Origin: a virus | Length of the DNA: 25,965 nucleotides | Virus record (IMG/VR): IMGVR_UViG_3300037635_000509 | Location: 1 to 25,965 of that record | Strand: one strand, 5' to 3' | Shown here: positions 878 through 13,641 of the stretch, piece after piece | Layout of the letters: every line of letters begins with the position of its first letter | Position numbering within the stretch: the stretch's first letter is position 1 | Position numbers and translations under genes: made by a program | The notes under the pieces: generated by a model | The model's database searches: none | What the model was told of the DNA's origin: nothing | Seen by the model: only the letters and a program-made list of their open reading frames with translations

Positions 878-896
878 CTGCAGCATTAAGCTGCAG
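878..896. promoter_or_regulatory. Hairpin across a stop/start junction
   Basis: CTGCAGC (878-884), five-base loop, GCTGCAG (890-896). On the minus strand the stop codon of the 886-1479 gene and an overlapping ATG fall in the loop. The position suggests a role in mRNA processing or translational coupling. It also argues that the next gene starts further downstream, at 853. Confidence 0.55.
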
Positions 897-1479
897 CCTT
901 TGTGTTAGCGGCATCCAGCATCTCAAGTTGCTCTTTCAGAGCCGCAAGGAAAGACGCTTTAGAGATGCCATTCATCTCGCAATCAAGCAACGCTTGCATT
1001 GCAATGTCTGAAGCAGACTTTGTTTCAGCCTGTTCAGCTTCGCTGTCTAGTCCAACATTGGACTTGTCATCAGCCTCTGGCTGTACAGGCTTGTCAGCCT
1101 TCGGCTTTGGGTCAGCTTTAGGCTTCATAGCAGATTGTAAAGCTGTGAGACTGGTAAAGCCTTTCTTTGAGGCTTTGATGAAGTCACGACAAGCTGTCTC
1201 GTTTTCAACGAACCACAAAGCCTCTGAACGACGACGTTTGTCGATACCGTCAATGCCACAGTCTTTCAACCTTTGGGTTGAGATACGCTCACCGCCTTCG
1301 GCTTTCAGCTTTTGCATCAGCTTTCCAAGCCGTGTATCAAAGCCATCAGCCTTCGTTGCTTTGGTGAAACGAGCCTTATCACCTTTGGTGATTTGCTTGT
1401 ATTCTTTGGCAAGAGCAAAGCCTTCGGCTTCAAGAGTATTGTTTACAACAACCAGTGATTTTGAGATTGAGTTTTGCAT
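886..1479 (-). CDS. Basic, Ala/Lys-rich hypothetical protein, 197 aa
   Basis: A 197-residue protein with AGAGGAA ahead of the ATG at 1479. Residues about 1-120 look like a globular, Lys/Arg-rich domain (KGDKARFTKATKADG, then STQRLKDCGIDGIDKRRRSE) compatible with nucleic-acid binding. Residues about 117-155 are a low-complexity linker of Lys, Pro, Ala and Asp. The last 40 residues are helical. No family is recognised. It is the first gene leftwards from the divergent control region, so an early or regulatory role is plausible (inference). The DNA contains at least seven small perfect hairpins and one copy of the AGTCCAA palindrome, which encodes SNVGLD in the linker. This suggests structural selection or insertion on top of coding. 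Confidence 0.75.
   Translation of the reverse strand: MQNSISKSLVVVNNTLEAEGFALAKEYKQITKGDKARFTKATKADGFDTRLGKLMQKLKAEGGERISTQRLKDCGIDGIDKRRRSEALWFVENETACRDFIKASKKGFTSLTALQSAMKPKADPKPKADKPVQPEADDKSNVGLDSEAEQAETKSASDIAMQALLDCEMNGISKASFLAALKEQLEMLDAANTKAAA
1035..1430. repeat. Cluster of mini-hairpins inside the 886-1479 gene
   Basis: Seven short perfect hairpins: CAGC-TTC-GCTG (1035-1045), CAGCC-TCT-GGCTG (1071-1083), AGCC-TTC-GGCT (1096-1106), CAACC-TTTG-GGTTG (1267-1280), GCC-TTC-GGC (1294-1302), ATCACC-TTT-GGTGAT (1378-1392) and AAGCC-TTC-GGCTT (1418-1430). On the minus strand the TTC loops read GAA closed by C-G, the geometry known for unusually stable DNA mini-hairpins. Some come from Ala-Glu-Gly codons, so part of the pattern may be coding bias. 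Confidence 0.55.
1049..1064. repeat. AGTCCAA-CA-TTGGACT palindrome, copy 2 (in coding DNA)
   Basis: A perfect 7-bp inverted repeat inside the linker-coding part of the 886-1479 gene. It is identical over 16 bases to the copy at 1739-1754 and differs by one base from the copy at 368-383. Confidence 0.75.
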
Positions 1480-1589: not shown

Positions 1590-1686
1590 GCCTCGCCTGA
1601 TCCCCGGCGCAAGCGTTTCCATGTGATTGCAAGAAACTTTTAAGTTTCTGAAATACCTGCGCTGAAATCGCAATGCATAGCGAGGC
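1590..1686. ncRNA. Candidate structured RNA with possible pseudoknot
   Basis: GCCTCGC (1590-1596) pairs with GCGAGGC (1680-1686) to close a 97-base segment. Inside, GCGCA (1607-1611) pairs with TGCGC (1658-1662) and AGAAACTT (1632-1639) pairs with AAGTTTCT (1642-1649). ATTGC (1626-1630) can pair with GCAAT (1670-1674), which would cross the GCGCA stem and form a pseudoknot. No known RNA family is recognised and the transcribed strand is unknown. Confidence 0.3.
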
Positions 1687-1738
1687 TTTCGGTTTGGTGG
1701 TGGCTCGTATGACTATCACCTTCAGTGATAGGGGGTGT

Positions 1739-1754
1739 AGTCCAACATTGGACT
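1739..1754. repeat. AGTCCAA-CA-TTGGACT palindrome, copy 3
   Basis: Identical 16-base palindrome to the one inside the gene at 1049-1064, here in non-coding DNA within the hairpin array. Confidence 0.75.
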
Positions 1755-1933
1755 TGTGGTTCACCTTTGGTGAAAAGATTAGATGCATCAACCTTGTAAC
1801 TTCGTTACAAAGCTGTATTGTTGACCTTTTACAATCATACTTCGTATGGCAACTGATACCATAACAGTTGTTTACAACTGAATTGCCGGATTACTTACTG
1901 CATATTCTATGCAATATCAAGGGCTTACTCAGA

Positions 1934-2010
1934 TGGCTCCCTAATGAGGCGGCTGGTTGCGCATAATGCAGAGGCATACACGCCTTAGATGAGGGGGTAG
2001 GCAGGAGCCA
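1934..2010. other. Nested stem structure in GC-richer patch
   Basis: TGGCTCC (1934-1940) pairs with GGAGCCA (2004-2010). Within it AGGCG (1947-1951) pairs with CGCCT (1981-1985), and the centre contains GCAT-A-ATGC. The three stems nest in one hairpin-like fold of 77 bases. The patch is more GC-rich than the AT-rich DNA to its right. It may be a small RNA or an origin element; no family is recognised. Confidence 0.3.
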
Positions 2011-2182
2011 CCGGGGGGTAGCGTAGATATGTATACACATAAATACACAGATCAGGTAAATTGACTGTTAACCACAAGAGCAACTGTCAATACCTATATG
2101 CACAAGCATTGTGCAACTGCCTAAATAATAGGCAACTGTAAGGGGGTGTATGGACCATTTGAACTATTTTGCAAAAGGGGGG

Positions 2183-2361: not shown

Positions 2362-2411
2362 TATCCCTACGTGCAAAGATTATCCGTGCTATACAAAGAA
2401 AGTTCTTGACA

Positions 2412-2624
2412 ATGGCAAAGAAATCTGTAAAACTATACACAGATAATGTTCTTGAAGCATTCTACGATGCTATTCGTAACAATTCATTAGACCGACTGCA
2501 TATACCTCATAGTGATGTATTCTATGTGCGTAGTGCAGTCGAAGCCCATTACGGGCGTTCATTTACTTTGAAGCACGTAGAAGATGCTATGCGAGCAGAG
2601 GGATGGACAGAGAAAGATGAATAA
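2412..2624 (+). CDS. Small conserved-looking phage protein, 70 aa
   Basis: First gene of the rightward run. The ATG at 2412 is chosen over the in-frame TTG at 2406; a purine-rich AAAGAAAG lies about 9 bases upstream of it. The 70-residue protein is mostly helical (KLYTDNVLEAFYDAIRNNSL), followed by a pattern suggesting a small helix-turn-helix-like fold: AVEAHYGRSFTLKHVEDAMRAEGW at about residues 41-64. A DNA-binding or early regulatory role would suit its place directly behind the promoter and the repeats, but no family is recognised. It is coupled to the next gene through TAATG. Confidence 0.75.
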   Translation: MAKKSVKLYTDNVLEAFYDAIRNNSLDRLHIPHSDVFYVRSAVEAHYGRSFTLKHVEDAMRAEGWTEKDE

Positions 2625-2836
2625 TGGTTTCACTCTTCTTATACCTATCCGTAATCATAACTCCTGCTGGTGAAGTAAAAGCCTTCAGCGATGTTGTACA
2701 GGAATGCCCTAGCACAGAATATGTGATACAGTACCATGAGGCAATGGTAGATGCTGGCGATATAGTTGACTGGCGAGCAAGGTGTACTAAGGTTGACTTA
2801 GATATGGCTATGCCAAAAGATAAGGTAGGGGTATAA
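2624..2836 (+). CDS. Small putative exported protein with two Cys, 70 aa
   Basis: A 70-residue protein with an N-terminal hydrophobic segment, MVSLFLYLSVIITPAGEVKA, that looks like a weak signal peptide with a possible cleavage site near residue 20. The mature part is acidic, with Cys at about 28 and 54 that could form one disulfide outside the cytoplasm. The start overlaps the previous stop (TAATG) and its own stop overlaps the next start the same way. The layout resembles two other small proteins in this window (5420-5611 and 5980-6174). Function unknown; envelope modification or superinfection control are possible. Confidence 0.65.
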   Translation: MVSLFLYLSVIITPAGEVKAFSDVVQECPSTEYVIQYHEAMVDAGDIVDWRARCTKVDLDMAMPKDKVGV

Positions 2837-3129
2837 TGGCAATACCTGAACGTGTCAAAAACAAAATGAAAGAAGAAGGTCTGTCTGGCGTTAACAAACC
2901 CAAACGGACACCCAAGCACCCAACTAAGTCACACTGCGTGATGGCATCAGAGGGTGGCAAGTATAAATTTATACGCTTCGGTCAGCAGGGCGTAAGTGGT
3001 GCTGGCAAGAATCCTACAAGTGCTAAAGACAAAGCACGTAAGAAGTCATACTACGCACGACATAATGCGCAGGGTAAACCTACCACTAAGCTGTCTGCGA
3101 AATATTGGTCACACAAAGTTAAATGGTAA
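2836..3129 (+). CDS. Small basic conserved marine-phage protein, 97 aa
   Basis: A 97-residue, strongly basic protein. The central motif KSHCVMASEGGKYKFIRFGQ, followed by GVSGAGKNP and a Lys/Arg/Tyr-rich part (KARKKSYYARHNAQGK), resembles a protein type I recall from marine cyanophages and pelagiphages, where the role is unknown. High charge and small size suit a nucleic-acid-binding or virion-packaged protein (inference). The start overlaps the previous stop in TAATG. Confidence 0.75.
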   Translation: MAIPERVKNKMKEEGLSGVNKPKRTPKHPTKSHCVMASEGGKYKFIRFGQQGVSGAGKNPTSAKDKARKKSYYARHNAQGKPTTKLSAKYWSHKVKW

Positions 3130-3145
3130 TATAGGAGATATACCG

Positions 3146-3520
3146 ATGGGACTATCAAAATTATTAAGGGCAGCATTAACGGTTAATCCTTTAGCTAGAA
3201 CTAATAATGCTAAAAAGTTAGCTACTACTAGAACGCAGCTTGAAAAAATTTTACAGGAAGGTAGTGAGGCTACTGCTGCCGAAAAAAAGAAAGCACGTGC
3301 TAAACTTCAGCAAATGGATAAAGTAGAAGCTGGTGAAAATGTGCAACGTCAAGCAAAGCAATCTAAAGCTGCTCCAGAGGGCGCAACAAAAAAGAAAAAA
3401 CTAGCACCACCAAGTTTAAAAAGTTTAGAAGGACTACCTGATAACTTTAGTATAGGTGGTATGGCTACCAAAAACTATGTGAACCCAGTTAAAATTGTAG
3501 ACAATAGAAAGAAAAAGTAA
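3146..3520 (+). CDS. Lys/Ala-rich protein with a GGM motif, 124 aa
   Basis: The ATG at 3146 is chosen because AGGAG lies 8 bases upstream; the longer in-frame ORF back to 2996 would overlap the previous gene and lacks such a site. The 124-residue protein has a central helical, Lys/Ala/Glu-rich segment (about residues 25-80, coiled-coil-like) and a C-terminal basic tail with SIGGMATKNYV. The GGM motif is shared with several other proteins in this window. Function unknown; a virion-internal or nucleic-acid-binding role is conjecture. Confidence 0.7.
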   Translation: MGLSKLLRAALTVNPLARTNNAKKLATTRTQLEKILQEGSEATAAEKKKARAKLQQMDKVEAGENVQRQAKQSKAAPEGATKKKKLAPPSLKSLEGLPDNFSIGGMATKNYVNPVKIVDNRKKK

Positions 3521-3900
3521 TGGCTGATAAACTATCTGACAAATCTACGTCCCAACTAAATGCTATGTTAAATAAAGGTAGCGGTGCGTCACAAAAAGAA
3601 GTACGTGCTGCTATTACCGAATTAAAGAAGCGTGGTGAAGATACACCGCCGCCTTCTCTTGTAATGGGTGGGCGTAGAGAAATGTCTAAGGGCGGCAAGG
3701 CTACCAAGAAAGTACCTGTCATCTCTATCGGTATAGGCATGGCTGAAATGCCTAAAGGCAAAGCTAAGATGATGCGTGGCGGTATGTCAGGTGGCAAGGA
3801 ACATATGTACGCAGCAGGTGGTATGGTTAAAGATAACCCCGGCCTGAAGGCACTCAAAGCTGCCAGCCCAGAGGCGTACAAAAAAATTACTGGCAAGTAA
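3520..3900 (+). CDS. RGGM-motif basic protein, 126 aa
   Basis: A 126-residue basic protein coupled to the previous gene by TAATG. The N-terminal helical part (residues 1-42) contains the segment SQKEVRAAITELKKRGE. The remainder is a flexible Gly/Lys/Met-rich region with repeated motifs: MGGRREMSKGGK, MMRGGMSGGKEHMYAAGGMV, and a short final helix ending KKITGK. At DNA level the MMRGG codons (from 3769) match those in the 4418-4723 gene. The motif is typical, in my recollection, of small proteins in marine phages, role unknown. Confidence 0.75.
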   Translation: MADKLSDKSTSQLNAMLNKGSGASQKEVRAAITELKKRGEDTPPPSLVMGGRREMSKGGKATKKVPVISIGIGMAEMPKGKAKMMRGGMSGGKEHMYAAGGMVKDNPGLKALKAASPEAYKKITGK

Positions 3901-4431
3901 ATGCATCCAGTAGAAGCTGACATACGTAAGTGGTCGCACGACTTCCTAGAAGTATCAAATAAAAAACTTAACGGTCTACCACCCTGCCCCTATGCTAAAC
4001 AAGCGTGGTTAGATGATAAGGTATCCTTCAGTATCAATACAGGGCTGGAAGGTTTAATAAAAGAAGTGACCATCTTTGAACTGCACGACTACGACATAGT
4101 AGTGTGGGCAAATCAATACCTACCTGACATGGAATACCTAGATGGATATTGTGATGGCATAAACGAAGCCATGTCCATAGCAGGTAAAGATATGCACCTC
4201 ATGGTGTTTCATCCAGACTATGACGCTGAAGAGGCGGGTCTGGATTTCCTAATTGATGAGGATGCAACAGATGAAGGTCTTGTGTACTGCATGGTGTTTG
4301 TACAGAGACTGTCTACACTAGACGATGCAGCATTAAGTCTGGAGAAGTCTGGGTATTACGAACACTTTCCAGAGGAAGTGTATAAGAGTCTAGTATTAGA
4401 TAGAAGGGAACTTAGAAATGGCACAAGATAA
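3901..4431 (+). CDS. Conserved phage protein with CPYAKQAW motif, 176 aa
   Basis: A 176-residue acidic globular protein that begins one base after the previous stop. The N-terminus has KWSHDFLEVSNKKLNGLPPC followed by PYAKQAW. This vaguely recalls the LNLCPFAK pattern of the DUF1415-type family, though the match is too short to assign. The rest is mixed alpha/beta with many Asp and Tyr residues and no catalytic signature I recognise. Its acidity contrasts with its very basic neighbours. It overlaps the following gene by 14 bases. Confidence 0.75.
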   Translation: MHPVEADIRKWSHDFLEVSNKKLNGLPPCPYAKQAWLDDKVSFSINTGLEGLIKEVTIFELHDYDIVVWANQYLPDMEYLDGYCDGINEAMSIAGKDMHLMVFHPDYDAEEAGLDFLIDEDATDEGLVYCMVFVQRLSTLDDAALSLEKSGYYEHFPEEVYKSLVLDRRELRNGTR

Positions 4432-4723
4432 AAATGATAGTGTTGGCGCACGTATTCGCCGTGAAATGAAAGAAATGGAATCACGGTTAAAGGATCAAGG
4501 TTTTGATAGAATGGAAATTCAACAATTGATGCGTGATTACTTTGCTAAAGCTACACCAAAGAAAAAACAGCCAGTTAAAAAAATGACTGCAGCAAGAGGC
4601 GGCATGGCTAAAAAGAAAATGATGCGTGGTGGCTCAGTACAGCCAAAGCGTATGCGTGGTGGTGGTATGGCTAAAATGGCTAAAAAGAAAATGATGCGTG
4701 GCGGGGCTGTCAAAAAGAAATGA
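4418..4723 (+). CDS. RGGM-motif histone-like tail protein, 101 aa
   Basis: A 101-residue protein with AAGGGA about 8 bases before the ATG. Residues 1-45 form an amphipathic charged helix (RIRREMKEMESRLKDQGFDR). Residues about 46-101 are almost entirely Lys, Arg, Gly, Met and Ala, with four RGG motifs, such as AARGGMAKKKMMRGGS and KMMRGGAVKKK. This is a short-period peptide and DNA repeat. The charge and low complexity suit DNA or RNA binding or packaging into the virion. Function unproven. Confidence 0.75.
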   Translation: MAQDKNDSVGARIRREMKEMESRLKDQGFDRMEIQQLMRDYFAKATPKKKQPVKKMTAARGGMAKKKMMRGGSVQPKRMRGGGMAKMAKKKMMRGGAVKKK

Positions 4724-4845
4724 GAAAGCAAGCAGTAAAATATTTTGGATGGGCTTTGCTCTATATGGGTAAACCCTTTACCCGTGTAGGCAACTGGTTT
4801 TGGAAGATGCACAAGCGTGTATTAGACTGGAACGATAATGCCTGA
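4720..4845 (+). CDS. Tiny membrane-associated protein, 41 aa
   Basis: A 41-codon ORF that fills the space between two genes exactly. Its ATG overlaps the preceding TGA (ATGA), and its own stop lies 8 bases inside the next gene. The sequence is aromatic and basic: MRKQAVKYFGWALLYMGKPF, then NWFWKMHKRVLDWN. It looks like a short amphipathic or membrane-anchoring peptide. The precise couplings on both sides are the main support for it being real. Confidence 0.6.
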   Translation: MRKQAVKYFGWALLYMGKPFTRVGNWFWKMHKRVLDWNDNA

Positions 4846-5203
4846 TCTTAGTGTATCTAAATTTACCACGGAAAGTAAAACAATAACTAGCACCTCTGCT
4901 GATGCAAGTGCTGACGTTGTTTATACTGTGCCGGATAACTATAGTGCTATTGTTAGATTTTTACATCTAAGCAATGGTACTAATAGTAGTAAGAAAGCAT
5001 ATCTACAGTTTTATCATAACGATGATACATCATATCATTATCTTATAAATGGTTTAAGTATGTCCGGTCATTCAACCCATGATGTAGTGTCTGGTAACTT
5101 TTTTACACTTCATCAAAAAGATAAATTGTTAGCATATAGAGATAGTGGTATGACTTTAGATGTTACAGTATCTGTAGAAGAATATTTTGATCCGGCAAGG
5201 TAG
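4838..5203 (+). CDS. Putative beta-rich virion protein, 121 aa
   Basis: A 121-residue protein with no hydrophobic segment. It is rich in Ser, Thr, Asp and Tyr, with alternating hydrophobic patterns typical of a beta-sandwich (ADVVYTVPDNYSAIVRFLHL, AYLQFYHNDDTSYHYLINGL, KLLAYRDSGMTLDVTVSVEE). Small beta-rich proteins of this type are common as head-decoration or tail-attached proteins in phages, and the recurrence of YHND-like text echoes the fibre at 21380. The assignment is inferred from fold pattern only. Confidence 0.7.
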   Translation: MPDLSVSKFTTESKTITSTSADASADVVYTVPDNYSAIVRFLHLSNGTNSSKKAYLQFYHNDDTSYHYLINGLSMSGHSTHDVVSGNFFTLHQKDKLLAYRDSGMTLDVTVSVEEYFDPAR

Positions 5204-5208
5204 TAATT

Positions 5209-5436
5209 ATGGCACCTAGAAAAAAAGCAGCACCTGCAAAGAAAAAAGTACGTATGTCAAAAGGCGGTTCTACCGTAAACGCTGCAGGTAACTACACAAA
5301 ACCTGCAATGCGTAAGCAGCAGTTCCAACGTATTAAAGCTGGCACTAAAGGCGGCGGCGCAGGTCAGTGGTCAGCACGTAAAGCGCAAATGCTTGCGTCT
5401 GCTTATAAGAAGGCTGGCGGTGGCTACAAGTCTTAG
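5209..5436 (+). CDS. Basic protein with GQWSARKAQ...GGGY motif, 75 aa
   Basis: A 75-residue, very basic protein. Its conserved-looking parts are SKGGSTVNAAGNYTKPAMRK, an arginine/lysine helix, GAGQWSARKAQMLASAYKKA and a C-terminal GGGYKS. I recall this signature from many cyanophage and marine phage proteins and a domain of unknown function in large DNA viruses (possibly DUF5872; not verified). A Lys-rich leader (APRKKAAPAKKKVRM) suggests nucleic-acid binding. It overlaps the start of the next gene. Confidence 0.8.
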   Translation: MAPRKKAAPAKKKVRMSKGGSTVNAAGNYTKPAMRKQQFQRIKAGTKGGGAGQWSARKAQMLASAYKKAGGGYKS

Positions 5437-5611
5437 CGTTGTAATGTTCTGCGTCATAACTGCTAATGCAGTAGAGGTAGAAACAAAAGTGCATGACACC
5501 CATGCGTGGCTGTCTAAATGCCACATGGCATTGACAGAGCATGGGTTTGACAACACAAGGGAAGAGTGCTTTTGCACAACAGTGACACCAAATGCCAACG
5601 AAACTCAATGA
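5420..5611 (+). CDS. Small secreted Cys-containing protein, 63 aa
   Basis: The GTG at 5420 is preferred: AGAAGG lies 6 bases upstream, and from there the protein has a compact signal peptide, MATSLSVVMFCVITANA, with an ANA-type cleavage site. The mature peptide is about 46 residues with Cys at 34, 50 and 52 (ECFC). An upstream in-frame TTG at 5393 would make the N-terminus longer and more basic. No lipobox is evident, so a lipoprotein spanin is not supported. It overlaps both neighbouring genes. Confidence 0.65.
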   Translation: MATSLSVVMFCVITANAVEVETKVHDTHAWLSKCHMALTEHGFDNTREECFCTTVTPNANETQ

Positions 5612-9647: not shown

Positions 9648-10041
9648 AAGCATAGGCAAGTGGAAGCTACCACAGCCAACAGACATCAAAGAAGAAAACG
9701 AATGGATACCCATCCCACGTATTGCACGTACTGTACCATTCGGATATAAACAGGATGATGAAGACCCCGACATTCTTCAACCTATCCAAATTGAATTGGA
9801 CTTGTTAGAGAAAGCTAGACAGCACGTAAATCAATACAGCTACCGTGAAGTAGCTAATTGGTTAAGTACACAGACTGGCAGATACATCTCGCACGTAGGT
9901 TTGAGGAAACGATTAAATAATGAGCGAAGACGTAAGAATCAAGCTGCAAGCCTCCGCAAGTGGGCAGAATATGCGAAAACGGCAATCGCCAAAGCGGAAG
10001 AAATCAGCAACCAAAGAACAGGCTCTAAAGCCGAAGGTTGA
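9640..10041 (+). CDS. Helix-turn-helix protein between the terminase genes, 133 aa
   Basis: A 133-residue protein. A helix-turn-helix-like segment lies at about residues 66-93 (QYSYREVANWLSTQTGRYIS, then HVGLRKRLNNERR), followed by a basic helical tail. The N-terminus is Pro- and Trp-containing and is not recognised. Its place between terS and terL suggests an accessory DNA-binding factor for packaging or transcription. Its last 122 bases overlap the beginning of terL in another frame, longer than the few-base couplings elsewhere. Confidence 0.75.
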   Translation: MTRSIGKWKLPQPTDIKEENEWIPIPRIARTVPFGYKQDDEDPDILQPIQIELDLLEKARQHVNQYSYREVANWLSTQTGRYISHVGLRKRLNNERRRKNQAASLRKWAEYAKTAIAKAEEISNQRTGSKAEG

Positions 10042-11488
10042 GATACAGGAAACTGTATCACCTGAATATGACAGCAGCGAGATAGAACAACACGCTAATG
10101 TTTTGTTCAAGCCAAACGAAGGACCACAGACAGAGTTCTTAGCGGCGGCTGAACGAGAAGTACTGTACGGCGGTTCAGCAGGTGGTGGTAAATCCTATGC
10201 TATGCTTGCTGACCCACTACGTTACATGGGGCATCCACAGTTTAGTGGGCTTCTACTGCGACATACAACGGAAGAGTTACGAGAACTCATATTTAAGTCG
10301 CAGGAGTTGTACCCGAAAATCTGGCCCGGTATTAAGTGGTCAGAAAGAAAAATGCAGTGGACTGCGCCATCTGGTGCAAGATTGTGGATGTCTTATCTCG
10401 ACAGAGATGATGATGTATTGCGCTATCAGGGTCTAGCCTTTAGCTGGATAGGCTTTGACGAGTTAACACAATGGGCCACACCATACGCATGGAATTATAT
10501 GCGTTCTCGTCTACGGTCTACTGCACCTGATTTGCCAATATTTATGAGGGCTACGACTAACCCCGGCGGAAGAGGTCATCACTGGGTCAAGAAGATGTTC
10601 ATTGACCCTTCGCCATATAATAGAGCCTTCGATGCAACAGACACAGACACAGGAGAAGTTCTCCGCTATCCAGCAGGACATAGTAAAGCTGGAAAATCTT
10701 TATTCAAGAGAAGATTTATACCCGCAAGACTTTCTGATAACCCATACCTTGCGAATGCAGGTGACTACGAAGCCATGCTCCTATCGCTTCCAGAACAGCA
10801 GCGTAGGCAGCTTCTTGAAGGCGATTGGGATATTAAAGAGGGAGCAGCCTTTACTGAGTTTGATAGGCGGGTTCACGTTGTTGAGCCTTTTAGGATTCCT
10901 AGCAACTGGGTTAAGTTTCGGGCTTGCGATTATGGCTACGGTAGCTTTAGTGGTGTTGTTTGGTTTGCCGTTGCGCCTTCTGAGCAACTTGTGGTATATA
11001 GAGAACTCTACGTTTCTAAAGTCCTTGCCACAGACTTGGCAGATATGATTCTGGATTTGGAAGCGGAAGATGGCAATATTAAGTACGGTGTTCTGGACAG
11101 TTCTCTTTGGCATAAGCGTGGTGATACTGGTCCTTCTCTTGCGGAGCAAATGATTAGCCGTGGGTGTCGCTGGCGACCCTCAGACAGAAGCAGGGGCAGT
11201 CGTGTAGCTGGTAAGAACGAGATACACCGTAGACTACAGATAGATGAATTTACAGAGGAGCCTAGACTTGTTTTCTTTGATACTTGCACAAACCTCACAG
11301 CCCAACTTCCCTCAATACCGTTGGACAAGAAAAACCCAGAAGACATTGACACAAAGAGTGAAGACCACTTGTATGACGCTCTTAGGTATGGTATAATGTC
11401 AAGACCAAGGTTTAGTATATTTGACTACGACCCAATGGGTAGACCCGGTAGTGGTATGCAAGTCGCAGACTCAACCTTTGGATACTAA
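9920..11488 (+). CDS. terL: Terminase large subunit (ATPase-nuclease)
   Basis: A 522-residue packaging motor. The N-terminal basic extension (residues 1-60) precedes the ATPase: Walker A GGSAGGGKS (84-92), Walker B FSWIGFDEL with D180/E181, and coupling motif ATTN (211-214). The nuclease domain follows with candidate metal ligands D337 (ACDYGYG), D393 (GVLDSS), and D482 and D486 (EDHLYDALRYG). It cuts concatemers and pumps DNA into the prohead through the portal encoded next. AGGAAA about 10 bases upstream supports the ATG at 9920. An in-frame ATG at 9971 is possible but has a weaker site. Confidence 0.95.
   Translation: MSEDVRIKLQASASGQNMRKRQSPKRKKSATKEQALKPKVEIQETVSPEYDSSEIEQHANVLFKPNEGPQTEFLAAAEREVLYGGSAGGGKSYAMLADPLRYMGHPQFSGLLLRHTTEELRELIFKSQELYPKIWPGIKWSERKMQWTAPSGARLWMSYLDRDDDVLRYQGLAFSWIGFDELTQWATPYAWNYMRSRLRSTAPDLPIFMRATTNPGGRGHHWVKKMFIDPSPYNRAFDATDTDTGEVLRYPAGHSKAGKSLFKRRFIPARLSDNPYLANAGDYEAMLLSLPEQQRRQLLEGDWDIKEGAAFTEFDRRVHVVEPFRIPSNWVKFRACDYGYGSFSGVVWFAVAPSEQLVVYRELYVSKVLATDLADMILDLEAEDGNIKYGVLDSSLWHKRGDTGPSLAEQMISRGCRWRPSDRSRGSRVAGKNEIHRRLQIDEFTEEPRLVFFDTCTNLTAQLPSIPLDKKNPEDIDTKSEDHLYDALRYGIMSRPRFSIFDYDPMGRPGSGMQVADSTFGY
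11369..11397 (+). promoter_or_regulatory. Candidate extended -10 promoter ahead of the portal gene
   Basis: TATAAT (11392-11397) preceded by TGG, with a weak -35 TTGTAT (11369-11374) at 17-base spacing, inside the 3' end of terL. It would start transcription near 11404, about 100 bases before the portal ATG. The weak -35 and the coding location lower confidence. Confidence 0.4.
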
Positions 11489-11499
11489 GGAAAAACGAT

Positions 11500-13641
11500 A
11501 TGAATGAAGATGAAATTATGATCGAAGACGATGCTATCGCACTGGAAGATAGCGACGATACATCTGTTTCAGACGTAGACGTAAGTAACATTATCCCGTT
11601 TGTGTTAGATCGTTATAAGCGATCTGAAGATTATCGTTATGATGACGAACAGCGTTGGCTAAAAGCCTACCGCAATTATCGTGGTTTGTATGGTCCAGAC
11701 GTACAGTTTACTGAAACGGAAAAATCTCGTGTCTTTATTAAAGTCACAAAAACTAAGACGCTGGCAGCATACGGGCAAATTGTTGATGTCCTGTTTGCTA
11801 ACCAGCGTTTTCCTTTATCTATTGAGCCTACTGAATTACCAGAGGGGGTTGTTGCCGATGTACATTTTGACCCTAAAGAGCCAGAACAATTACGTGGTGA
11901 AACTGCTCTTTCTAGTCCCTACGGTTTTGCGGGTGACGGCAAAGACTTACCGCCGGGAGCCACAGCGCAGTCCTTACAAGAAAAACTTGGGGTGCTGGAA
12001 GGCAAACTGGAACCTGTTGCTGACAAACTAAAAGAGGGGCCGGGTAAGACACCTACCTCTATTGCATTTAGCCCTGCACTAATTGCTGCAAAGAAAATGC
12101 AAAAGAAGATACACGACCAGTTAGAAGAATCTGGTGCCACTAAACATCTGCGTAATGCTGCATTTGAAATGGCATTGTTTGGTACGGGTGTTATGAAGGG
12201 GCCATTTGCTATTGACAAAGAGTACCCTAACTGGAATGACGATGGCGAGTATGACCCACTGTTCAAAACAATTCCACAAGTAAATCACGTATCTGTCTGG
12301 AACTTCTACCCAGACCCAGATGCTAACAATATGGATGAAGCACAATATGTGATTGAACGTCACAAGATGTCTCGTACACAATTACGTAACCTAAAGAAGC
12401 GTCCATACTTCCGTGGCGAAGTTATCAATGAAGTTATTGCTATGGGTGAGAACTACACCAAGCAGTATTGGGAAGATGACTTGGCAGACTATGCACCAGA
12501 GCATGGCGTTGATCGCTTTGAAGTGCTTGAGTATTGGGGCATGGTGGATACAGAACTGCTTGAAGAGCAGGGCGTAGATATTCCAAAAGAACTAAAAGAG
12601 TTTGATGAGTTGCAAGCTAATGTTTGGATATGTAACGGCAAACTAATGCGTATGGTTCTTAATCCATTCAAGCCATCTAAGATTCCATACTCCGCTGCAC
12701 CATATGAATTGAACCCATATTCATTCTTTGGTGTAGGTATTGCAGAGAACATGGACGATACGCAGACACTAATGAATGGCTTTATGCGTATGGCTGTTGA
12801 TAACGCTGTGTTGTCAGGCAACTTGATTGTTGAGGTAGATGAAACAAACCTAGTGCCGGGTCAGGACTTGTCATTGTATCCGGGCAAGGTATTCCGCAGA
12901 CAGGGTGGCGCACCGGGTCAAGCTATCTTTGGCACAAAGTTCCCTAACGTATCTTCTGAGAACATGATGCTATTTGACAAGGCACGTGTACTGGCAGATG
13001 AAAGCACAGGCTTCCCATCATTTGCGCATGGACAGACAGGTGTATCTGGTGTAGGCCGTACAGCGTCAGGTATCTCAATGCTTATGGGTGCTGCACAAGG
13101 TAGCACCAAAACAGTTATTAAGAATGTAGACGACTATCTGCTTCGCCCACTTGGTGAAGGTTTCTTCCGCTTTAATATGCAGTTTGACTTTGACCCAGAA
13201 ATCAAAGGCGACTTAGAAGTTAAGGCACGGGGTACAGAAAGTCTTATGGCTAATGAAGTGCGTAGCCAGCGTCTAATGCAGTTCTTGCAAATTGCAAGTA
13301 ATCCTGCACTCGCACCCTTTGCTAAGTTCCAGTATGTAATCCGTGAGATTGCAAAGTCTATGGACTTAGACCCCGACAAAGTAACCAACAATATGGACGA
13401 AGCTGCACTGCAAGCAGAAATTATGAAGGGCTTCCAACAGCCAATGCAACCAGAGCAGGGTGGTATGACACCACCGCCGGGTGCAGATGCAATGGACCCA
13501 ACAGGTGCAGGTGGTGGCAACGTAGGTACTGGACAGGTTCCTGTACCGGGTGAACAAGGATTTAGTGCGAATGGACAAGGAAATACTCAGCAAGCTGAAG
13601 GGGCTGGTCAGCAACAGCCGCCAATGGGACCACTTCAGTAA
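11500..13641 (+). CDS. Portal protein
   Basis: A 713-residue protein directly after terL. The N-terminus is acidic. A conserved-looking segment follows (YDDEQRWLKAYRNYRGLYGP, then VFIKVTKTKTLAAYGQIVDV), and a central portal-like core includes VWNFYPDPDANNMDEAQYVI and ESTGFPSFAHGQTGVSGVGR. The last about 75 residues are disordered, Gln/Gly/Pro-rich, with another GGM motif. Portals of short-tailed phages have similar size and place. It forms the dodecameric channel for DNA entry and the docking site for the tail adaptor. Identification is by position, length and overall pattern. Confidence 0.85.
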   Translation: MNEDEIMIEDDAIALEDSDDTSVSDVDVSNIIPFVLDRYKRSEDYRYDDEQRWLKAYRNYRGLYGPDVQFTETEKSRVFIKVTKTKTLAAYGQIVDVLFANQRFPLSIEPTELPEGVVADVHFDPKEPEQLRGETALSSPYGFAGDGKDLPPGATAQSLQEKLGVLEGKLEPVADKLKEGPGKTPTSIAFSPALIAAKKMQKKIHDQLEESGATKHLRNAAFEMALFGTGVMKGPFAIDKEYPNWNDDGEYDPLFKTIPQVNHVSVWNFYPDPDANNMDEAQYVIERHKMSRTQLRNLKKRPYFRGEVINEVIAMGENYTKQYWEDDLADYAPEHGVDRFEVLEYWGMVDTELLEEQGVDIPKELKEFDELQANVWICNGKLMRMVLNPFKPSKIPYSAAPYELNPYSFFGVGIAENMDDTQTLMNGFMRMAVDNAVLSGNLIVEVDETNLVPGQDLSLYPGKVFRRQGGAPGQAIFGTKFPNVSSENMMLFDKARVLADESTGFPSFAHGQTGVSGVGRTASGISMLMGAAQGSTKTVIKNVDDYLLRPLGEGFFRFNMQFDFDPEIKGDLEVKARGTESLMANEVRSQRLMQFLQIASNPALAPFAKFQYVIREIAKSMDLDPDKVTNNMDEAALQAEIMKGFQQPMQPEQGGMTPPPGADAMDPTGAGGGNVGTGQVPVPGEQGFSANGQGNTQQAEGAGQQQPPMGPLQ

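Follow-up and report, generated by a model that had tools for sequence, protein, structure and literature searches.

Perfectly paired mini-hairpins of conserved shape and variable sequence in the early region of phages related to HMO-2011

The DNA described here (the window) is a contig of viral origin, 25,965 bases in length, which is kin to Puniceispirillum phage HMO-2011 and to the Roseobacter phages CRP-345 and CRP-1. Its early genes lie on the minus strand at positions 1–1480, next to a divergent control region (1480–2400) and to the late-side genes, which run rightward from 2406 towards the terminase (9920–11488) and the portal (11500–13641). HMO-2011 has the same gene order in the opposite sense. 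The first early gene, gp01 (886–1479, minus strand), encodes a protein of 197 amino acids that belongs to no known family. HMO-2011-type phages have been described as a dominant and broadly distributed group of marine viruses (PMC9038755), and a text search of this main genomic survey of the group found no mention of the hairpins that are the subject of this work.

The late-side operon has a sigma-70-type promoter on the plus strand (2183–2211, TTGACA-17-TATAAT), which matches the consensus at 12 of 12 positions and is kept in relatives. Just downstream of it, at 2224–2365, are about five iteron-like copies of ACACTTAAAGTG / CACTTAAATG, whose place is taken in relatives by palindromic variants; an origin or a site for a regulator is conceivable here. 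Before gp01, at 1495–1575, there is a long interrupted hairpin (CTATCTT..AAGATAG, GGTTTTA..TAAAACC, CCCCTT..AAGGGG), which appears to covary in relatives, being for example GTTACAC..GTGTAAC in CRP-345. Repeated TGTGATCACA palindromes occur in the control regions of the HMO-type phages CRP-1 and CRP-345 and also in the array-less CRP-603, at the end of its record.

The control region had been noted in the initial annotation for about ten perfect mini-hairpins at 1632–2134, and a count against shuffled sequence bears this out: 11 perfect stem-loops (stem of at least 5 bp, loop of 3–5 nt) are found in this interval against 1.46±1.21 after shuffling, and none of 500 dinucleotide shuffles reaches 11. 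Restricting the count to stems of 6 bp or more leaves 9 against 0.42. The interval itself proved too narrow, since the mostly coding early DNA at 1–1480 contains 25 hairpins of the same kind against 4.2 expected, again unmatched in 500 shuffles. The array stops before the late promoter, and on the late side (2400–5500) the count is near background, with 2 stems of at least 6 bp against 2.0 expected. The array is therefore real and larger than first described. Sigma-70 promoters and terminators were also considered as a source of the dyads and rejected, a pattern scan having turned up nothing beyond the late promoter, a single weak promoter-like site and a single terminator at chance level. In the record of HMO-2011 (GU557055), two annotated “hypothetical proteins” (53665–53928 on the plus strand and 53776–53907 on the minus strand) overlap on opposite strands inside the hairpin array and are probably not genes.

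Loci of relatives were collected via the first late-side protein, the anchor GGCAACTGATNCCATAACAG and gp01. A conserved block, GGCAACTGATACCATAACAGTTG (1848–1870, plus strand), served as the anchor; HMO-2011, CRP-345, CRP-1 and the window each have it just once, and the exact pattern was found in 90 viral stretches. In some other contexts (L123, L139, L146 and L265) the 20-base anchor GGCAACTGATNCCATAACAG has no helix A (described next) at its side. Among these is a MAG contig labelled Candidatus Aminicenantes, the one contig hit by the pattern in bacterial genomes, which has neither the array nor gp01. When the control regions of relatives are aligned, hairpins appear at the same places with other stems, beside strongly conserved blocks.

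The clearest case is hairpin A (CATAC-TTC-GTATG, 1836–1848), which adjoins the invariant GCAACTGAT. Directly before this sequence, about 24 different perfect stems are found among the relatives. In the 13 distinct forms with 6-bp arms and a 2-base loop, 100% of the cells are paired, each of the 18 changes affects both sides of the stem and none only one side, and the covariation amounts to 0.722 against 0.160±0.052 in shuffles. Hairpin D (AGAAACTT-TT-AAGTTTCT, 1632–1649) is flanked by conserved TTGCA and GAA; it could be located from the anchor in 46 of 81 relatives, where it takes about 23 different stem and loop forms, every one of them perfectly paired over the arm. Hairpin C (TTGTAAC-TTC-GTTACAA, 1794–1810) is represented in relatives by TTACAAC/GTTGTAA, TTGTATC/GATACAA, CTGCAAC/GTTGCAG, CTGTAAC/GTTACAG and others.

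Other members behave in a similar way to a varying degree. The hairpin CTATCAC-CTTCA-GTGATAG (1713–1731) is present in close relatives, and near its place the loci L050 and L049 carry other stems, such as CAACAGT..ACTGTTG. TTCACC-TTT-GGTGAA (1760–1774) has TACCCT-GTA-AGGGTA at the aligned place in HMO-2011, while TGCATA-TTC-TATGCA (1899–1913) corresponds to CTACATC-TT-GATGTAG in HMO-2011 and to AGCATT-TTC-AATGCT in the locus L026. CAGTTGT-TT-ACAACTG is located at 1865–1880, and the weakest member, TATGT-ATAC-ACATA, at 2028–2041. The sequences of the last two hairpins, TGCACAA-GCA-TTGTGCA (2099–2115) and TGCCTA-AATAA-TAGGCA (2118–2134), are largely conserved. The proposal that the conserved feature is the shape is thus strongly supported, as it passed both tests that the initial annotation had named for its refutation, by the shuffle count and by the compensatory stem changes that a comparison with related phages revealed in helix A, helix D and hairpins within the coding sequence of gp01.

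One palindrome of the control region, AGTCCAA-CA-TTGGACT (1739–1754), is of a different kind. The stems had been described as all different, but this stem has further copies, AGTCCA-ACCT-TGGACT at 368–383, upstream of the minus-strand ORF 76–348, and AGTCCA-ACAT-TGGACT at 1049–1064, inside gp01. In most relatives, palindromes of the form GTCCR-N(2-4)-YGGAC are present in 2–8 copies per genome against a chance expectation of 0.02 per locus, nearly all of them between the control region and +4 kb. The variable half-site base is uniform within a genome, being A throughout in 19 genomes and G throughout in 17, with no mixed genome. The three sites of the window are therefore members of a repeated, dispersed and genome-uniform family, which is separate from the hairpins that share only their shape. 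Uniform half-sites are the behavior of operators that co-evolve with a phage repressor, like stoperators, and these palindromes are probably operators of a repressor that define two specificity groups. The stoperators of mycobacteriophage L5 and cluster A, as described in PMC6550527 and PMC9283540, are likewise dispersed repressor sites with a sequence specific to the immunity group; however, they are asymmetric, while the sites at 1739–1754, 1049–1064 and 368–383, to which alone the likeness applies, are palindromic and have only a putative repressor. It is very unlikely that the whole array consists of binding sites for such a sequence-specific dimeric regulator, as what holds for this one family does not extend to the other hairpins, which share no sequence: among 917 distinct hairpins there is no conserved flanking base or stem motif.

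The geometry of the array was examined in 46 non-redundant loci by counting distinct hairpins against shuffles. Perfect hairpins are enriched 5.1-fold in the control region, 6.2-fold in the first 1.5 kb of the early genes, 2.1-fold in the next 3 kb and 1.0-fold on the late side. In the same order, hairpins with one G·U pair on the early-sense strand reach 1.25-, 1.13-, 1.35- and 1.02-fold and those with one A·C pair 0.88-, 0.99-, 0.97- and 1.07-fold, and hairpins with one other mismatch are at 1.0-fold or below (1.0 in the control region, 0.9 in the proximal early region). The excess, 5–10-fold in these relatives, is confined to perfect hairpins. It is also confined in size, with enrichment of 4.6–5.4-fold for stems of 6 bp, 6.2–10.4-fold for 7 bp and 5.7–7-fold for 8 bp, but just 1.3–1.7-fold for 5 bp; stems of 9 bp were seen 1 and 0 times and stems of at least 10 bp never. 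Loops are only 2–5 nt long with a peak at 3, and the hairpins follow each other with a median gap of 43 nt and no strong period.

The loops have a preferred sequence when read on the early-sense (minus) strand. The window had been reported to carry TTC loops on the plus strand, that is GAA on the minus strand, closed by C-G at 1794–1810 and 1836–1848, and this reading is correct: both hairpins are C(GAA)G on the minus strand. A third TTC loop, at 1899–1913, is closed by A-T. The C(GNA)G motif is known to form a stable minihairpin in DNA, and the suggestion that the GAA loops belong to this class gains support across the relatives, where triloops are the commonest class of loop in the control region, GNA loops make up 33% against 1.4% in shuffles, and the closing pair is C-G in 64% against 18%. 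The loops are also rich in A. Nearest-neighbor DNA or RNA parameters in ViennaRNA give no strand difference in hairpin stability, and the preference for the early-sense strand is thus one of loop sequence alone.

The array is strongly one-sided. In a profile based on the anchor, the enrichment reaches its maximum of 10.8-fold between 500 and 1000 bp on the early side and then declines along early transcription for about 4–5 kb; on the late side, background is reached at 500 bp. The same one-sided decay is seen in the complete genomes of HMO-2011, CRP-345 and CRP-1. In 41 loci anchored on gp01, the enrichment is 11.7-fold in the 500 bp before the gene and 15.9-fold in its first 500 bp. The values that come next are 10.0, 6.6, 3.6, 4.1, 4.0 and 2.0, and at +4.5 kb about 1.3 is reached; here too the late side is at background.

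Inside gp01, whose coding sequence itself bears compensated hairpins, a codon alignment shows that these are held in place by synonymous paired changes, e.g. TTGTCCC..GGGACAA versus TTATCCC..GGGATAA, and also by paired changes that alter the protein, as in ATCGTT-GAA-AACGAT versus GTTATC-GAA-GATAAC. In pairs with more than 90% identity, the third-position divergence is 0.041 in stems and 0.098 outside, with loops matching the outside, and at 80–90% identity it is 0.147 and 0.279, a constraint of which template switching combined with protein-level selection could mimic a part. Single changes in stems lead about equally often to G·U and to A·C (9:7, 52:36 and 200:202), and both-sided Watson–Crick changes are common even above 90% identity (23 versus 34 one-sided). 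Such an equality speaks against RNA and favors either a structure that depends on both strands or an exact rewriting of the stem.

This bears directly on the possibility that the hairpins act as RNA, in a long structured leader and in hairpin-studded early mRNAs that would control stability, translation or antitermination. Such a role is in line with the folding of the control region, on average about 33 kcal/mol below shuffles, with the A-rich loops and slight G·U excess on the early-sense strand, and with the drop in hairpin density along the early operon. However, G·U hairpins are barely in excess where perfect ones are 5–6-fold enriched, G·U and A·C single changes are equal, both strands fold equally well, and GNRA and UNCG tetraloops are absent from the control-region hairpins. 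No Rfam family matches at its gathering score, and below it the matches are at chance level. Compensatory change through G·U intermediates on one strand, as expected of a structured RNA, was essentially absent; helix A has no one-sided changes at all. RNA is thus a quite unlikely explanation of the array, although in the distal early region the weak excess of G·U hairpins (1.35-fold) leaves room for some contribution at the level of mRNA. RNA processing sites, one of the alternatives offered in the initial annotation, are disfavored because G·U pairs are hardly tolerated. The covarying helices also suggested a large structured non-coding RNA. The large non-coding RNAs of phages have hundreds of bases, many helices and covariation, but the array has no Rfam match or tolerance of G·U, its energies favor neither strand, and it continues through protein-coding genes, and this candidate was set aside as the main reading.

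A comparison with the promoters of the virion RNA polymerase (vRNAP) of phage N4 had been proposed as well. The promoters P1–P3 of N4 are likewise small DNA hairpins of the early region, with a GNA-type three-base loop closed by C-G. The array contains hairpins of the same size (5–7 bp stem and 3-nt loop) and GNA loops, although loops of 2, 4 and 5 nt also occur, and the structural work on N4 describes a sheared G:A pair in the loop and stem bases that are free provided that the pairing is kept (PMC4496689). The N4 promoters nevertheless have fixed bases (-8G, -10G, a purine at -11 and +1C), are three in number, and are read by the vRNAP from a hairpin on the template strand. The array has no fixed bases: the N4 core GC(GRA)GC occurs in 0 and 1 of 145 distinct triloop hairpins of the control region on the two strands, no flank is conserved, and dozens of hairpins lie within coding sequence. 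Its GNA loops are on the early-sense strand, opposite to those of N4. The same procedure recovered, as a positive control, P2 and P3 of N4 (557–573 and 4546–4562), whose loops read TCC on the early-sense strand. Searches of Pfam, PHROG and PDB and pairwise comparisons with the large virion proteins of HMO-2011 and its relatives gave no match to RNA polymerases or to the N4 vRNAP; the window itself is incomplete. On the grounds of sequence and strand, and with no polymerase detected in these searches, the analogy fails, and N4-like promoters are a scarcely credible explanation.

The left (early) ends of N4 (L182, 1–4500) and of the N4-like roseophage DSS3P2 (L184, 1–4500) show a milder excess of perfect hairpins, about 2–5-fold, which extends beyond the known promoters; T7 shows no hairpin excess. 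A weak form of the array may thus be more widespread.

The way in which the stems change points to template switching inside the hairpin. Where two hairpins have the same arms and matching flanks, their loops are often reverse complements of each other, for example CTGTCT-TT/AA-AGACAG; of the loop pairs that differ at all positions, inversions account for 9 of 14 with two bases and 5 of 16 with three. Homogenization of the arms and inversion of the loop are footprints of template switching (PMC8604942, PMC8794818), and the array has both. Such a process explains how stems can be replaced without visible intermediates, and it is supported that the stems are rewritten partly in this way. Quasi-palindromes perfected by template switching are, like the hairpins of the array, perfect short inverted repeats that also occur in coding sequence (PMC8604942, PMC8794818); by expectation they are unconstrained in geometry and position, whereas the array is dense, is limited to a narrow range of sizes, keeps its positions throughout the clade and decays to one side, none of which belongs to that picture.

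It is conceivable that the array is only a neutral hot zone, where the polymerase, near the start of early transcription or replication, often turns back onto the nascent or displaced strand and makes and perfects short inverted repeats of no function. The all-or-nothing perfection of the hairpins, the concerted double changes between loci above 90% identity, the loop inversions and the decay from the control region would all be accounted for, and quasi-palindrome mutations become more frequent where DNA is highly transcribed (PMC3820800). Taken alone, template switching leaves three features unaccounted for: the sharp limit on size, the lack of decaying hairpins and the constancy of position. 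A neutral zone should have no hard ceiling at about 8 bp, yet stems of 9 bp or more are almost absent; decaying hairpins with one mismatch are not in excess, third positions diverge less in stems, and hairpins exactly adjoin invariant blocks in distant relatives. Moreover, the array is absent or weak in sister phages that share the core replication genes (core genes as in PMC9038755). We regard a purely neutral origin as unlikely, if far from negligible. That selection sets the surviving geometry is supported by the near absence of stems of at least 9 bp and by third-position change in coding stems at about half the outside rate.

The distribution of the array follows a clade that carries gp01. 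All 60 loci with a detectable gp01 have at least 5 hairpins per kb, where shuffles have about 1, and five loci without it have 1.4–5.0; one of these, L093, still has 5 hairpins per kb. Among relatives the density varies about four-fold. Sister phages that have no gp01 are for the most part without the array, and of the sister HMO-type phages CRP-603 has almost no hairpins and CRP-9 few. The AlphaFold2 model of gp01 is all-helical, with a pLDDT of 70.8. A structure search with it gave no PDB fold match with E below 1 and no recognizable nucleic-acid-binding fold, sequence searches gave no Pfam family with a convincing score and no PDB sequence match, and the sole strong match in BFVD is the unnamed S4S2E1. 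By this co-occurrence gp01 is possibly the partner of the array, which is an association and not proof, and the link could be one of simple clade inheritance.

Taken as a whole, the comparison of sequences suggests that selection acts on the array as a set of DNA structures, which owe their perfection in part to template switching, in the zone where early expression or replication starts; we give this reading about an even chance. Perfect stems of 6–8 bp with loops of 2–5 nt would form mini-hairpins or small cruciforms in the phage DNA, with their shape and not their sequence preserved over the early/late control region and the initial few kilobases of the early genes. They would act as DNA in the zone that is opened first, for early transcription, for the start of replication or for both, as sites for a structure-specific protein, for which gp01, a phage primase or helicase and the host SSB or HU are candidates. 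Our best guess for the function is accordingly that of a substrate in this zone for a structure-specific protein, possibly gp01.

Origins of the G4 type have a few sequence-conserved hairpins. These single-strand initiation sites for primase, and other ssDNA origins, resemble the array in having several small hairpins of one strand near a possible replication start, but here tens of hairpins of free sequence extend over kilobases of genes. More tentatively, and in our view somewhat doubtful, dozens of non-identical hairpins of 6–8 bp over coding and non-coding early DNA may constitute a code of DNA shape, read by a dedicated structure-specific protein (possibly gp01) with the task of marking, opening, protecting or priming the genome's early half.

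If the origin is neutral, the phages have a template-switch hot zone that is able to reshape several kilobases and that imitates the covariation usually counted as proof of RNA structure. If the DNA hairpins are selected, they imply an unknown structure-reading factor, and a dense array defined only by shape, with exact pairing kept even by the choice of synonymous codons, would give phage DNA a further level of information that gene annotation misses.
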